From Calditrichia bacterium (GTDB lineage: Bacteria; Calditrichota; Calditrichia; JAJRVZ01), in the NCBI GenBank assembly GCA_023132435.1, contig JAGLYF010000128.1, forward strand, positions 1 to 37,302: a stretch of DNA of 37,302 bases. The letters are read 5' to 3'. Each line of letters begins with the position of its first letter. Within the stretch, counting starts at the first letter, position 1. A program made the position numbers and the translations under genes. The notes beneath the pieces are model-generated. The model was not told the DNA's origin. It made no database searches and was given only the letters and a program-made list of their open reading frames with translations. This document shows positions 6,999 through 37,302 of this stretch, piece by piece.

Positions 6999-8631
6999 TA
7001 TTCTCTTCCATATTTTGAATAGAAAAAATCACCCGAACTGTTGTTCCTTTATTTTCTTCACTGTCAATCTCGATCTTTGCCTTATGGGCATCGAGAATCT
7101 CCTTCACAATCGATAGACCAAGTCCTGTACCTTTAATTTCTAATCCGGGCCGGTATACACGATAAAATTTATCAAAAACTTTGTCCTTTTCTTTGTCAGG
7201 AATACCAATTCCTGTATCGCTTATCTCGAGGATGATATCGGTATCAGTTTTGATCAGGCGAACGCGAATCTGACCATCATTGGGAGTAAATTTAATCGCA
7301 TTACCGAACAAATTCGATAAGACTTGTTTAAGTGCATCAGGATCGGCAAAAATTTCATAACGTTCATCAGAAAATTTGTGAAAAACTTCTATGCCTTTTT
7401 CTTCGGCTTGAATTTTGTGTACTTCAAGAATTTCTGAAATTATTGGCTGGCTATCTACTTTGCGCATTCTGTAGGTAAAACGTCCGGATTCAATCCGGGA
7501 AATATTCAGAATGTCCTCAATTAATTTTGATAATCGTTGACTTTCCTGGTAAATAATGTTTATAAATTCTTCTTTAATCGCTTCGTTCATTTTTTTGTCG
7601 CGCAAAATTGTACTTGAAAAGCCTAAGATGGAAGCGAGTGGTGTTCTCAGTTCATGGGAAACACTGGAGACAAAATCACTTTTCATGCGGTCACTCTCAC
7701 GTAGAGTTTCTTCAGCATGTTTTCTGACCGTGACATCGCGCATGGATCCTTCAATGGCAACCGGATTACCATAACTGTCAAAAACCAGATGCGCATTTAC
7801 GGAAGTGAATACCTCTTTTCCGAGCCTGTCCTTTAGGCGTAAATCGAAATCTTCGATTTCTTTTTTTTCCTTTAATGCCTGCAACAGCCTGGGATGATCC
7901 ATAGGATCATTATAAATAGTTGTTACGGGTTTGCCCAGTAAGTTTCCCCGATGATTATCAGTGTAACGGGAAATTGATGGGCTGACCTCGAGTATATTTC
8001 CCTGAAGATCGGTCTGGTAAAATACATCCTGGACATTTTCAAAAATCGTTCGATATTTTGTTTCGCTTTCACTTAAGGCATTTTGTGACTTTTCCAGTTC
8101 AAGGGTTTTTTGTCTTAACTCACGATTTATATCGATTGCTATTTTATGTGCTTTTTTCAGTTCTCTGTTTTGTAAACAGGCATTACAGGCCACCGCCAGT
8201 TTTGCGTTTAATGGGCTGATGGATTTAATAATTTGTGTATTCAATTCGCCGTTTGGCCTGATAAGAATAAGCATTCCAAAACCCGGTAGATCGAGCAGAT
8301 GGTAAAAGTCACTTCCTTCACCACCACCAATAAGAGGTAATTTCTTCTTAAAGGTGTTTAACTGATTTTCATTAAACGATGGTGAAAGAAGATCAATAAT
8401 TCTAAGATAAACACCGTTCTCCTGAATGCTTCGAGGGGTGATATAAACTTTTCGAAAAACAAATCTGTTCGTGGATCTTTCTTGAAGATGTAGAATAGCG
8501 CTGGCGGTACAGTTGAGGTTTTTCAGGTAGGAAGTCAGAGCCACCTTGAGCATTTTATTCATGTCCAGGGTAAGCCCAATTGACATGGCGATTTCGTAAT
8601 ATAATTGAATGAGATCAATCGGTTTAGCCAC
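6991..8631 (-). CDS. PAS-domain sensor histidine kinase (no obvious transmembrane segments)
   Basis: 546 aa; PAS region (YRTIFENVQDVFYQTDLQGNILEVSPSISRYT), H-box SSVSHELRTPLASILGFS, HATPase motifs (NLFGNAIKFTPNDG, DTGIGIPDKEKDKVFDKFYRV, GTGLGLSIVKEI). Overlaps the downstream REC gene by 8 nt. GTG start. Confidence 0.94.
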   Translation of the reverse strand: MAKPIDLIQLYYEIAMSIGLTLDMNKMLKVALTSYLKNLNCTASAILHLQERSTNRFVFRKVYITPRSIQENGVYLRIIDLLSPSFNENQLNTFKKKLPLIGGGEGSDFYHLLDLPGFGMLILIRPNGELNTQIIKSISPLNAKLAVACNACLQNRELKKAHKIAIDINRELRQKTLELEKSQNALSESETKYRTIFENVQDVFYQTDLQGNILEVSPSISRYTDNHRGNLLGKPVTTIYNDPMDHPRLLQALKEKKEIEDFDLRLKDRLGKEVFTSVNAHLVFDSYGNPVAIEGSMRDVTVRKHAEETLRESDRMKSDFVSSVSHELRTPLASILGFSSTILRDKKMNEAIKEEFINIIYQESQRLSKLIEDILNISRIESGRFTYRMRKVDSQPIISEILEVHKIQAEEKGIEVFHKFSDERYEIFADPDALKQVLSNLFGNAIKFTPNDGQIRVRLIKTDTDIILEISDTGIGIPDKEKDKVFDKFYRVYRPGLEIKGTGLGLSIVKEILDAHKAKIEIDSEENKGTTVRVIFSIQNMEENSE

Positions 8632-32758: not shown

Positions 32759-33874
32759 ATGGCCGACCGGAGGAATGAAGTGAGCGAAGAGAAAAAAGCT
32801 TTAATCTACATCCCAGATATAAGTGGATTTACACGTTTTGTAAACGATACCGAAATCCAGCACAGTCAGCATATTATTGAAGAATTGCTTGAAGTAATCC
32901 TGCAATCGAATGATCTGAAGATGGAAGTATCTGAAATTGAAGGGGATGCCATTTTATTTTATCGGGAGGGCGATCCACCCCAGCCGGATCAGATTAGTGA
33001 ACAGATCAAAAGTATGTTTATAAATTTCCATACTTATCTGCAAGTAATCGAACGAGATACAGTTTGTCAGTGTGGCGCCTGTCGCACTGCCAGTAAATTG
33101 ACTCTTAAATTTTTTATTCATTATGGAGAAATCGGGATATCGAGAATTCGCGATCATATACAATTGATGGGAAAAAATGTAATACTTGCTCACCGGTTGA
33201 TGAAAAATAATGTTGACAGTAATGAATATCTTCTGATGACAGAAGATTATACAAATTTTCATAATAAGTCACAGATAGAGAATCACCTAAACTGGTCTGA
33301 GATAAAGGAGGGTAAAATTAGTTATGAACACATTGGTGACGTCTGCTATAAATACATTGAATTATCCTCCTTGCGCTCACAGTTAAAACCTTTATTTCCA
33401 GCCTCCGATGCAGAAAAATTTCCCAATCCAATAGAAATTATGACCCATATTGAAGCACCGATGGAATTTACCTATCAGGTTGTTACAGATCTAACCCGAC
33501 GAACCAAATGGTCAGAGGGTCTAAAGAAAATTACTTACGATGAGAAAGAAATCCTGCGAATTGGCTCAAAACATATTTGTGATTTGCCTGCAGGTCTGGT
33601 TGAGTTGGAAATTGTTCAAAATAAACGTCTTGAAAAAAAAATTGAGTATGTCGAGCAGGCAACAAAAAGCTTTCTTTTTCCGAGAGCAACTACATTTTTT
33701 GTATTTGAAGAAAATCAACATGCTACAAATTTACTAATACAATTTCATTATAAAAGACTATTCCTGCTTGGTTGGCTGGTGGATCTTTTTTTCCGAAAAA
33801 AAATGGAGGAAAATTTTATGAAATCCGGTCGGAATTTGAAAAGATTTTGTGAAGAGTCAATAAAAAAACTATAG
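32759..33874 (+). CDS. DUF2652 (class III nucleotidyl-cyclase-like) N-terminal domain fused to a SRPBCC/START-like C-terminal domain
   Basis: 371 aa; YIPDISGFTRFVN, EIEGDAILFY, CQCGAC, LKFFIHYGEIG, LMGKNVILAHRLM; then PIEIMTHIEAPMEFTYQVVTDLTRRTKWSEGLKK... SRPBCC-like. Confidence 0.75.
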   Translation: MADRRNEVSEEKKALIYIPDISGFTRFVNDTEIQHSQHIIEELLEVILQSNDLKMEVSEIEGDAILFYREGDPPQPDQISEQIKSMFINFHTYLQVIERDTVCQCGACRTASKLTLKFFIHYGEIGISRIRDHIQLMGKNVILAHRLMKNNVDSNEYLLMTEDYTNFHNKSQIENHLNWSEIKEGKISYEHIGDVCYKYIELSSLRSQLKPLFPASDAEKFPNPIEIMTHIEAPMEFTYQVVTDLTRRTKWSEGLKKITYDEKEILRIGSKHICDLPAGLVELEIVQNKRLEKKIEYVEQATKSFLFPRATTFFVFEENQHATNLLIQFHYKRLFLLGWLVDLFFRKKMEENFMKSGRNLKRFCEESIKKL

Positions 33875-33879
33875 AATAA

Positions 33880-35070
33880 TCATAAGGCAAAAGCAATAAT
33901 ATAGGCAATAACCGAGATAATGAGCCCATACATAAAAAAATTGTATGCAATCCGTAAATAGCGATATTTTTTGCCCAGGACTACACCTAAATAATAGATA
34001 TCTCTAATCAGATTATTGTAAAGATATTCTCCATCCTCCATCAACTCCTTCATTCCCCATTCGTAGTCCTCAACCGGCATATTTATAAAGTTCCCAAAAA
34101 AAAGCAGGTTTCCTTTTCTTTGGGTAATATCTTCCCTGGAGATTGTAAATGACGTGACTTTGGGTCGGGTGGAAAGTACAGCAAAAATAATCGTACCCAT
34201 AAGAGTTATTAAAATTATTACCGTAGGAAATATTAATTGTGGATCTTCATGCAGTCTACGGACTAATACTGAAATGATGATTGAGATGATTAAAGCGCTG
34301 ATGCTTATTAAGGTGCTTGCTTTGTTATCAGCGATTGAACTTAATGTAAAATGGTTTTTAGAGGTTAAGCGAAACATCGTCTCAATACCACGATCCGGTG
34401 TTTTTGCTCTTTTTGATTTCAGTTGAAAAATGTTATCGACTTTTTCATTAGTATCATCGGTTTTTGTATCCATCTTTTTTGATCTCTCCAGGGATTCCTG
34501 CAATGTCGAAAGATTTATTAAACGCTGATCGCCAAATTTTTCACGGGCATATTCGGTTTCAAAATCATTTTCGCTGATAAATTGAATGTTTAATTTAATC
34601 CATTCCTCATTTGACAAAGATTTACCAGGAATATTTTTCCACTCTTTAAATAATTCTTTGTTTCGTTTAAAATAATTATTTTTACCAAGATGAATCAGAT
34701 TTGCATCATGAAGAATTCTTTCAAGTACGTTCCCGGGCTTATTTTCCGGTTTTGTTGAATTTATACAGCCAATAACTTTTTCTATATTTTCATCCGGATA
34801 GTTTTGTTTTTCTAAAAACCGTTTGGCTATATCCATACTTTTATCTTCATGACCTTCGTATAATTCTGATATTCCGCAATCATGAAACCAGGCAGCGAGG
34901 ACAATGATCTCTAAATCTGTCGCTGAAAGAAAACTTTTTTCACCAAGAAGTATCGCATTTTTGGCTGTCCTTCGTGTATGGGCGAATGAGTGAAAGGTAT
35001 ACCTGGAATCAATATTTTTGGTAAAGTGATCTTTAACAAATTTTTCACATTTTTTTATAATTTCTGTCAT
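33880..35070 (-). CDS. HD-domain protein with C-terminal Pycsar-effector-like (DUF5706/PycTM) transmembrane domain
   Basis: 396 aa; HD ligands FHSFAHTRRTAKN, WFHDCG, ILHDANLIHLG. C-terminal TSKNHFTLSSIADNKASTLISISALIISIIISVLV and further TM helices. Confidence 0.78.
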   Translation of the reverse strand: MTEIIKKCEKFVKDHFTKNIDSRYTFHSFAHTRRTAKNAILLGEKSFLSATDLEIIVLAAWFHDCGISELYEGHEDKSMDIAKRFLEKQNYPDENIEKVIGCINSTKPENKPGNVLERILHDANLIHLGKNNYFKRNKELFKEWKNIPGKSLSNEEWIKLNIQFISENDFETEYAREKFGDQRLINLSTLQESLERSKKMDTKTDDTNEKVDNIFQLKSKRAKTPDRGIETMFRLTSKNHFTLSSIADNKASTLISISALIISIIISVLVRRLHEDPQLIFPTVIILITLMGTIIFAVLSTRPKVTSFTISREDITQRKGNLLFFGNFINMPVEDYEWGMKELMEDGEYLYNNLIRDIYYLGVVLGKKYRYLRIAYNFFMYGLIISVIAYIIAFAL

Positions 35071-35485
35071 GACAAATCCTGTTTTTGGTTATTTAGCGCA
35101 AAGTTATAAAGTTTTTCAACTGAAAACTATCTAGAACCACATTTAGGCAAACTTTATTCTTTTATATTTAAAATAGTGACACAATATTTTAATATCAATA
35201 GGTGCTTCAGGGTGTTATCTTAAGTTAGTTGAAATTTAAAAGAAAATACTCATCCAAATGAAGATTTTATTTGATTCAGGTTATTTTTTATTTATTTTTC
35301 AGATGGAATTTCATTTTTACTAAATGATCGTTCATAATGACTGATAACTATATGATGTTTTTCCCGCCTAAAAGCTATATTGTAAACTATATGGCGAAGA
35401 AAAAGTCTATTTAGTATTAATAATTACAATTTTTATGCCAGGGTGATTCGTCCGGCTAATTATAGTTAGCTCTCTGGAGAAGAAG

Positions 35486-35932
35486 ATGGTTATTAGAGAG
35501 ATAGAAAAATCTGATATTAAGGACATACTCGATATTCGTGTATCTACCAAAGAAAACCATTTCAGCATGACAGATCTAGCTGATGTTGGAGTAACGCCCG
35601 AATCCGTTGCAGAGTGGCTTGATGGTTCTGTCAATGGATGGGTTTGCGAAATTTCCGGGCAGCCTGTTGGTTTCGCATTGGCTGACAGCAAAACTGCAGA
35701 AGTGCTTGTGGTTGCATGTTATCCGAAATTCGAAAAGAAGGGTATTGGCAAAGCATTGATGCACAAAATTCACGATTGGTTGTGGTCCTTTGATCACGAT
35801 GAAATCTGGTTATGGTCAGATCCCGACCCTGGCGTTCGCGCATATGGGTTTTATCGCAAACTGGGATACGAACCAACAGGCGCAACCAAGGGGAACGATG
35901 AAATGTTGAAACTTAAGAGGAAAGCGAGCTAA
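35486..35932 (+). CDS. GNAT-family N-acetyltransferase
   Basis: 148 aa; VIREIEKSDIKDILDIR, VLVVACYPKFEKKGIGKALMHKIHDWL, GVRAYGFYRKLGYEPTG. Stop overlaps the attC R'' box. Confidence 0.9.
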   Translation: MVIREIEKSDIKDILDIRVSTKENHFSMTDLADVGVTPESVAEWLDGSVNGWVCEISGQPVGFALADSKTAEVLVVACYPKFEKKGIGKALMHKIHDWLWSFDHDEIWLWSDPDPGVRAYGFYRKLGYEPTGATKGNDEMLKLKRKAS

Positions 35933-36019
35933 CAAGCGCATCAACGCGGACGCCTTCAGCTCTAGCATGCGTAGTTGAGTTACTAAGGCCCGGCGCCGGT
36001 TATGCGCCAATCGTTAGGC
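35927..36019 (+). other. attC recombination site (complete)
   Basis: AGCTAACAAGCGCATCAACGCGGACGCC ... GGCGCCGGTTATGCGCCAATCGTTAGGC; imperfect palindrome with GCGCAT/ATGCGC and GGACGCC/GGCGCC arms and terminal RYYYAAC/GTTRRRY-type boxes. Confidence 0.87.
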
Positions 36020-36055
36020 GTATTACTGATACACACAATATTTTGGAGATAAAAT

Positions 36056-37228
36056 ATGTCAATACCCACGGTGATGGTAAGTTCCACCTTTTATGACCTA
36101 AAACAAATTCGTACTGACATTGGACATTTTTTGAGTAAAGAAATGGGCTATACACCTCTTCTATCAGAACTTCCATCATTTCCAATTGATCCTAATAGAG
36201 ATACAATTGAAAACTGTAGAAAGCGCGTTGAAGAAAGTGCTGATATTTTGATATTAATTATAGGCGGAAGATATGGCTCAATCGATGACAAAACGGCAAA
36301 ATCAGTTACAAATTTAGAGTATCTCACCGCACGTAAAATAGGAATTCCAGTATATACTTTTATCGAAAAGCACATCCTTTCAATCCTTCCACTTTGGAAG
36401 AAGAATCCTGACGCTGATTACTCGAATGTTGTAGACACAACAAGTTTATTCCAATTTGTTGAAGAAATCCGTCAAATAGAAAGCAAGTGGACATTCCCCT
36501 TTGAAACAGCACAAGATATCATAACTACTTTGAGAATTCAATTTGCTTATCTTTTTTCTGATTCACTTCAGTTGCGACGTCGACTAGGAGAAAATGGAAT
36601 TCCACCAGATTTTGAAATTTTAAGTCCAAAAGCGTTAAAAATAGCACTTGATAAGCCTGAGGCATGGGAATACTTTTTATTTTTTCAGGTTTTGATTGAT
36701 GAAAATCAGAAACATGAACATATGTTTAAGGAGTATAAGGCAGGATTATTAATAGGCACTTCAGAACAAGTTGAAATTGAAACGGCGATTGGTTGGATTC
36801 AGACAAGACTTCGAGAACTAAAAGGATTGATAAATTCGGCTAATCAGCTGCTTAGTAAATCGTTACAAGAGGCATTCGGTGAACCTGGACAGGCAGGAGA
36901 TGCAGATGAAATAATCTGGAATGCTAAAAAACTTAGCGAAGTCACTGAAGAGGCTGTTAAATGGGCTTTACTCATTCGTAAGGCCAAAGTCGCAGAACCA
37001 TTTACAAATGTTATTGCTGCAATGTCTGAATTTCCTACCTCTGCTATTGAACGACTTCAATTTTATCCAATAGAATGCATTCCTCAAATTGAAAATGCGC
37101 TTAAAGGTGCATCATCAGGTACACCAATAAGTTTAGAGCTAATATTAAAATTGGAATTAAATAATGTGGAAGGCTTTAGCGCAGCTTTAGCTGAAGCTGA
37201 AAGGCGATTCAATGCAGGAGATTACTGA
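36056..37228 (+). CDS. DUF4062 domain-containing protein
   Basis: 390 aa; N-terminal TVMVSSTFYDLKQIRTDIGHFL ... ADILILIIGGRYGSI ... VTNLEYLTARKIGIPVYTFI matches the DUF4062 (TIR/deoxyribosyltransferase-like fold) pattern; C-terminal half unrecognised. Confidence 0.83.
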   Translation: MSIPTVMVSSTFYDLKQIRTDIGHFLSKEMGYTPLLSELPSFPIDPNRDTIENCRKRVEESADILILIIGGRYGSIDDKTAKSVTNLEYLTARKIGIPVYTFIEKHILSILPLWKKNPDADYSNVVDTTSLFQFVEEIRQIESKWTFPFETAQDIITTLRIQFAYLFSDSLQLRRRLGENGIPPDFEILSPKALKIALDKPEAWEYFLFFQVLIDENQKHEHMFKEYKAGLLIGTSEQVEIETAIGWIQTRLRELKGLINSANQLLSKSLQEAFGEPGQAGDADEIIWNAKKLSEVTEEAVKWALLIRKAKVAEPFTNVIAAMSEFPTSAIERLQFYPIECIPQIENALKGASSGTPISLELILKLELNNVEGFSAALAEAERRFNAGDY

Positions 37229-37244
37229 TTAATTGTTATATTAC

Positions 37245-37302
37245 GCCTAACAAGCGCATCATCGTGCCAAGATAAACCCAGATCGTTGGGAAATGATCTA
37301 CT
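37245..37302 (+). other. attC recombination site, 5' part only (cut by window edge)
   Basis: GCCTAACAAGCGCATCATCGTGCC, sharing TAACAAGCGCATC with the attC at 35927. Confidence 0.78.

Follow-up and report, generated by a model that had tools for sequence, protein, structure and literature searches.

Integron cassettes behind an attI-like leader at a contig end of a Calditrichia bacterium, in a draft genome with an internally deleted integrase relic

At one end of a contig of a Calditrichia bacterium (JAGLYF010000128.1, assembly GCA_023132435.1), two genes are bounded by complementary boxes. This raises the question of whether they are captured integron cassettes and, if so, how they came to stand where no integrase gene is seen. 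The window is the entire 37,302-nt contig (C33) and belongs to a 3.70 Mb genome in 360 contigs that is 92% complete. In the final 1.8 kb we found the two ORFs where the original prediction had placed them, both on the forward strand (Table 1). The GNAT protein has relatives on plasmids that are at most 34% identical and are annotated simply as GNAT acetyltransferases. Six relatives of the DUF4062 protein were found in genomes, with 36-38% identity in the N-terminal part only, and PADLOC matched neither cassette protein. The GC3 values of the two genes (0.42 for GNAT and 0.24 for DUF4062) fall on both sides of those of three host genes (0.33-0.35), as genes of different sources would be expected to.

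Table 1. Positions of the features at the right-hand end of the window
Feature	Position	Strand	Details
HD domain + PycTM membrane-domain protein	33880..35070	-	left flank; Pfam PycTM E 1.5e-32
attI-like leader	35261..35465	+	three-copy repeat; best conserved 35345-35465
Gene cassette 1, 548 bp	35466..36013	+	begins TTAGCT, ends at the G preceding the next TTAGGC; 8-nt complementary ends; attC model
GNAT-family N-acetyltransferase, 148 aa	35486..35932	+	Pfam Acetyltransf_1 E 8.8e-12
attC of cassette 1, 93 nt	35927..36019	+	R'' AGCTAAC, L'' GCGCAT, L' ATGCGC, R' GTTAGGC
Gene cassette 2, cut by contig end	36014..37302	+	start and R'' complementary over 10 nt
390-aa protein, N-terminal DUF4062	36056..37228	+	Pfam PF13271 E 2.9e-18
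Left part of cassette 2 attC, 58 nt	37245..37302	+	R'' GCCTAAC 37245-37251; contig ends inside

Both genes carry the mark of past circularisation, a cassette 5' end complementary to the R'' box of its own attC. These ends had been predicted to be exact reverse complements, and the match extends further than described. At 35465 cassette 1 opens with GTTAGCTC, which is matched in its attC by GAGCTAAC with its last base at 35933 (exact over 8 nt). At 36013 cassette 2 opens with GTTAGGCGTA, matched in its attC by TACGCCTAAC with its last base at 37251 (exact over 10 nt). Among the 410 GTTA...TAAC pairs that lie 300-1500 nt apart in the window, five attain 8 nt, including cassette 1, and cassette 2 is the only one to reach 10 nt. 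The first match is therefore only moderately unusual, while the second is unique.

For the first attC, the decisive evidence is a leave-one-out covariance model together with covariation. The site scores 91 bits (E 3.7e-28), against 12.7 bits for the next site. In the model of five sites, 90% of the pair cells are paired, compensatory changes are seen at 4 of 21 pairs, and shifting the partner by a single column makes the pairing collapse. The GNAT ORF is thus followed by an attC whose R''/R' and L''/L' boxes pair according to both model and covariation. The site shares 88% identity with an attC on contig C202 and 81% with another on C138, both of which follow unrelated genes. The 93 nt do fold into the imperfect palindrome originally described, with the bottom strand more stable (-17.2 kcal/mol) than the top strand (-15.0 kcal/mol) and with unpaired bases on one arm; known attC sites likewise leave individual bases of one arm without a partner. 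The folding energy is not decisive, being no better than that of shuffled sequence (z -0.76 and -0.01). Taken by itself, that energy would suit a reading with no cassettes, only chance palindromes around two unrelated genes; this reading is refuted by the 91-bit score, the homologous attC sites between unrelated genes and the complementary cassette ends, and its probability is close to nil. The window ends in a genuine integron cassette array with two captured genes.

The second site fared differently in the covariance check that the original prediction had proposed: the model alone gives it no support (12.7 bits, E 0.15), and only its left arm lies on the contig. It is called from the 10-nt complementarity and from related sites at the end of contig C9 and in genome G037, its inner sequence TCATCGTGCCAAGATAAACCC occurring again at the C9 end and six times in G037. 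Since this site runs off the contig, the window strictly holds one complete and one partial attC. The strict CALIN definition counts at least two attC sites (PMC12444791), a number reached by other contigs of the genome (C202 with three matches, C138 with two). The proposal of a possible CALIN holds for an array with no functional integrase beside it, whereas the site count within the window is one complete and one truncated. As a separate observation, a sequence starting TCATCGTGYCAAGATAAAYCCAGATCGTTG is found at array ends in two genomes of different families (37252-37302 of the window; L028 1-32; six places in G037, L043-L047), always exactly 7 nt after the R'' AAC. It continues for about 100 nt in G037, and of six cases only about two have a complementary right arm. 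The sequence may be a variant core of attC or, alternatively, a further element targeting attC.

The array begins beside conserved chromosomal genes. In the sister genera G001 and G002, orthologues of the HD-PycTM gene adjoin the same DUF2652 and histidine-phosphatase-like genes, and no cassettes were seen beyond this flank. In G001 that position is taken by other genes; the G002 contig stops about 100 bp past the flank gene, so that array absence is fully tested in G001 alone. The comparison with sister genomes suggested earlier finds the flanking genes kept and shows no array. The flank itself (32759-35070) is a convergent pair made of a DUF2652 protein and the HD protein with its PycTM (Pycsar-effector membrane) domain, in an order kept in 3/3 genomes of the family. 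The DUF2652 protein looks like a putative cyclase, and the two may form a conserved Pycsar-like signalling pair.

Between this flank and the first cassette lies a leader that the original prediction did not mention. It closes with CGTCCGGCTAATTATAG, the final base ahead of the G/TT crossover, and is present in exactly three copies in the genome, on C33, C232 and C9. The C33 copy is 88% identical to C232:8185-8302 (reverse strand) over 118 bp and 73% identical to C9:460-583 (reverse strand), the C9 homology reaching back to about 35261. In all three, homology stops in AATTATAGT and a cassette begins at the identical base. These first cassettes are different ones: that of C33 starts with GTTAGCTC, that of C9 starts with GTTAGTTGGCGC and has an attC reading GCGCCATCTAAC, and that of C232 starts with GTAGGTGT and has an attC reading ACACCTAAC, with one T missing. 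A search for the leader core allowing three mismatches returned the same three places in the genome and no empty copy. No leader copy was found in 39 relatives, in which scattered matches to the core stayed at the level of a reversed-pattern control, and the leader pattern was not found in 84,980 species genomes or in viral contigs.

A constant leader, a variable first cassette and a G/TT junction together look like attI, and from its position we take the leader to be a candidate attI, apparently duplicated. An attI would be adjacent to intI and recombined by it, and no intI was found at any of the three leader loci. The leader could instead be a dispersed non-coding repeat with an off-target (attG-like) site that IntI used in trans. 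Insertion of cassettes into genomes at attG sites is known (PMC12901181; PMC12444791), and the region before the C202 array, where the integrase relic described below probably lies, is not clearly homologous to the window leader: shuffled sequences reached its score in 3/500 cases against the C33 leader, 123/500 against C9 and 442/500 against C232. A consistent signal of a general attI core (CTAA-N-GTT) was not found in the integrons of relatives. A repeat that is indifferent to cassettes should, however, show empty copies, and 3/3 copies are occupied at the identical base. We regard such a repeat as somewhat unlikely and favour an attI-like site.

The array is not isolated. Among the matches listed by the covariance model, 19 to about 20 attC-like sites are spread over 15 to about 16 contigs. 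Several of these contigs are cassette arrays with genes for HicA/HicB (Pfam), a Gp49-like toxin with its HTH partner, DUF5677, a papain-like peptidase and others, while other contigs have single attC-like sites amid chromosomal genes. The HicAB, Gp49-like/HTH and DUF5677 genes are typical of chromosomal integrons. Neither the window nor the 15 contigs with cassettes gave an Rfam match, and a group II intron start suspected after the C202 site at 7136-7228 was dropped for that reason.

Other elements also occupy these sites. Insertions in attC directly after the R'' TAAC were seen on C125, on C17 (L082, from about 3711), on C163 (L087) and at the ends of L090, L027 and L088. On C125 (L085, 1918-3540) the element has a full IS110-family transposase gene and subterminal inverted repeats TTTGTCCTTTA...TAAAGGACAA. 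On C163 (about 2920-2767) it is a 150-bp non-autonomous form, ACATATTAAAGGTCC...GGACCTTTTAGGTAATATC set between TAAC and AAGCG, whose ends are found again on C123, C138, C52 and C125. The elements on C125 and C163 resemble IS1111-family elements, which are known to target attC sites. On C125 (75-195), an inverted-repeat element of 130 bp (GAGACTGTCGAAAAA...TTTTTCGACAGTCTC) fits exactly between the R' side of an attC and the cassette start that follows; it is also found, 99% identical, before a cassette-like start on C237 (L080, 2086-2215); these positions point to another small element that inserts at cassette boundaries.

We found no intI in the window, in agreement with the original prediction: none occurs in the 35 kb to the left of the array, and the right side lies beyond the contig end and is unassembled. 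Among the matches listed for the integron-integrase family, none in the assembled genome reaches the curated cut-off, none is an intact intI, and those found were only Xer-like genes. The second-best match (C200:1714-1938) was examined and set aside as an Xer/IS-like C-terminal fragment rather than IntI. A 48-codon in-frame ORF at C319:4348-4494 (reverse strand), first seen as a short tyrosine-recombinase match, is an intI relic. In it the N-terminal start of IntI, MSEKKLLDQLRDLIR, is fused in frame to the C-terminal TVQELLGH...GVKSPLD, the sign of an internal deletion. Its last 35 amino acids are 71-83% identical to the IntI C-termini of relatives, its best model is the TIGR02249 integron integrase (E 7.4e-15) and its best solved structure is IntI4 (2a3v). 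A complete integron has a functional intI; in this 92% complete genome only the 48-aa relic on C319 was found. No intI occurs at the same miaB neighbour in sister genomes.

The ends of C319 and C202 overlap by exactly 25 bp, which would probably put some 650 bp between the relic and the start of the C202 array that follows it, with the relic on the opposite strand. In classical integrons intI is opposite in strand to the cassettes, and a relic facing the C202 array is independent support for joining the two contigs. From the 25-bp overlap, then, the relic probably lies beside the C202 array.

An integrase that is present in the cell and missing from the draft would make the CALIN appearance an assembly artefact, the true state being an ordinary chromosomal integron that is complete and has an active intI. 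Repeated attC sites are points at which assembled arrays break, C33 and C9 both stop inside similar attC sequence, and the integron-integrase family scores above cut-off, with full IntI, in 19/60 related genomes; in a draft of 360 contigs and 92% completeness, the unassembled remainder, or the sequence to the right of 37302, could contain an intact intI. The search gave only Xer-like genes and the deleted relic (recognised by its C-terminal motif), however, and the window array starts next to conserved chromosomal genes rather than intI. We therefore consider an assembly artefact unlikely, and loss of the integrase from the genome remains the preferred reading.

Damaged integrase genes are also seen in relatives. 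The complete genome G004, of the same class and probably that of Caldithrix abyssi, has an intI (L091, 1742-2824) that is split by an in-frame TGA, and fragmentary intI genes occur in G014, G016, G029 and G038, so that members of this class may often have a decaying intI. The G004 locus resembles ours in that the broken intI is followed by an attC array, and differs in that intI is on the cassette strand and no homologue of the leader is present. Caldithrix abyssi has been listed as CALIN (PMC10295459); otherwise we found little literature on integrons in the Calditrichota. Integrase-less arrays in general are attributed to off-target insertion, intI loss or rearrangement (PMC8618304). The present array shares with them attC-bounded cassettes on one strand, no intact intI nearby and, as one of their proposed origins, intI loss by deletion, but has one complete attC in the window, a leader common to three loci and an intI relic elsewhere in the genome. 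In Xanthomonas, the sedentary chromosomal integrons that have an inactivated intI, accompanied by secondary CALINs, are alike in their truncated or lost integrase and their several chromosomal array loci (PMC12444791); they belong to another phylum, and the Calditrichia arrays differ in having unrelated flanking loci and a homologous leader before three arrays.

The explanation that we favour, with a probability of about 0.8, is an integron lineage with dispersed arrays whose integrase was lost through internal deletion and whose leader is an attI-like insertion site. IntI would once have cut out circular cassettes, which attI x attC recombination then inserted at G/TT, the 120-200 bp ahead of cassette 1 being an attI-like insertion site or a copy of one. 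The presence of cassettes at several chromosomal loci may reflect earlier action of IntI in trans at leader copies or other sites, or rearrangement. The integrase gene would then have lost about 265 internal codons, leaving the arrays frozen. Of the routes by which arrays are known to become integrase-less, the one best supported here is intI loss through an internal deletion. Because the cassettes are dispersed over many loci and share a leader, IntI may have used several landing sites before its loss. It is a further and tentative step, which we hold to be rather doubtful, to see the scattered attI-like leaders as separate landing sites served in trans by one integrase, since deleted, and thus as a multi-platform integron rather than off-target insertions.

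In kind the system is an ordinary integron, and its unusual points are the repeated leader and the readable intI deletion: an integron has apparently been caught after the loss of its integrase, with the deletion still legible. Should the leader prove to be a genuine attI, a single integrase would have served several such platforms, and this would change the explanation of scattered integrase-less arrays, which are now put down mainly to off-target insertion, intI loss and rearrangement.
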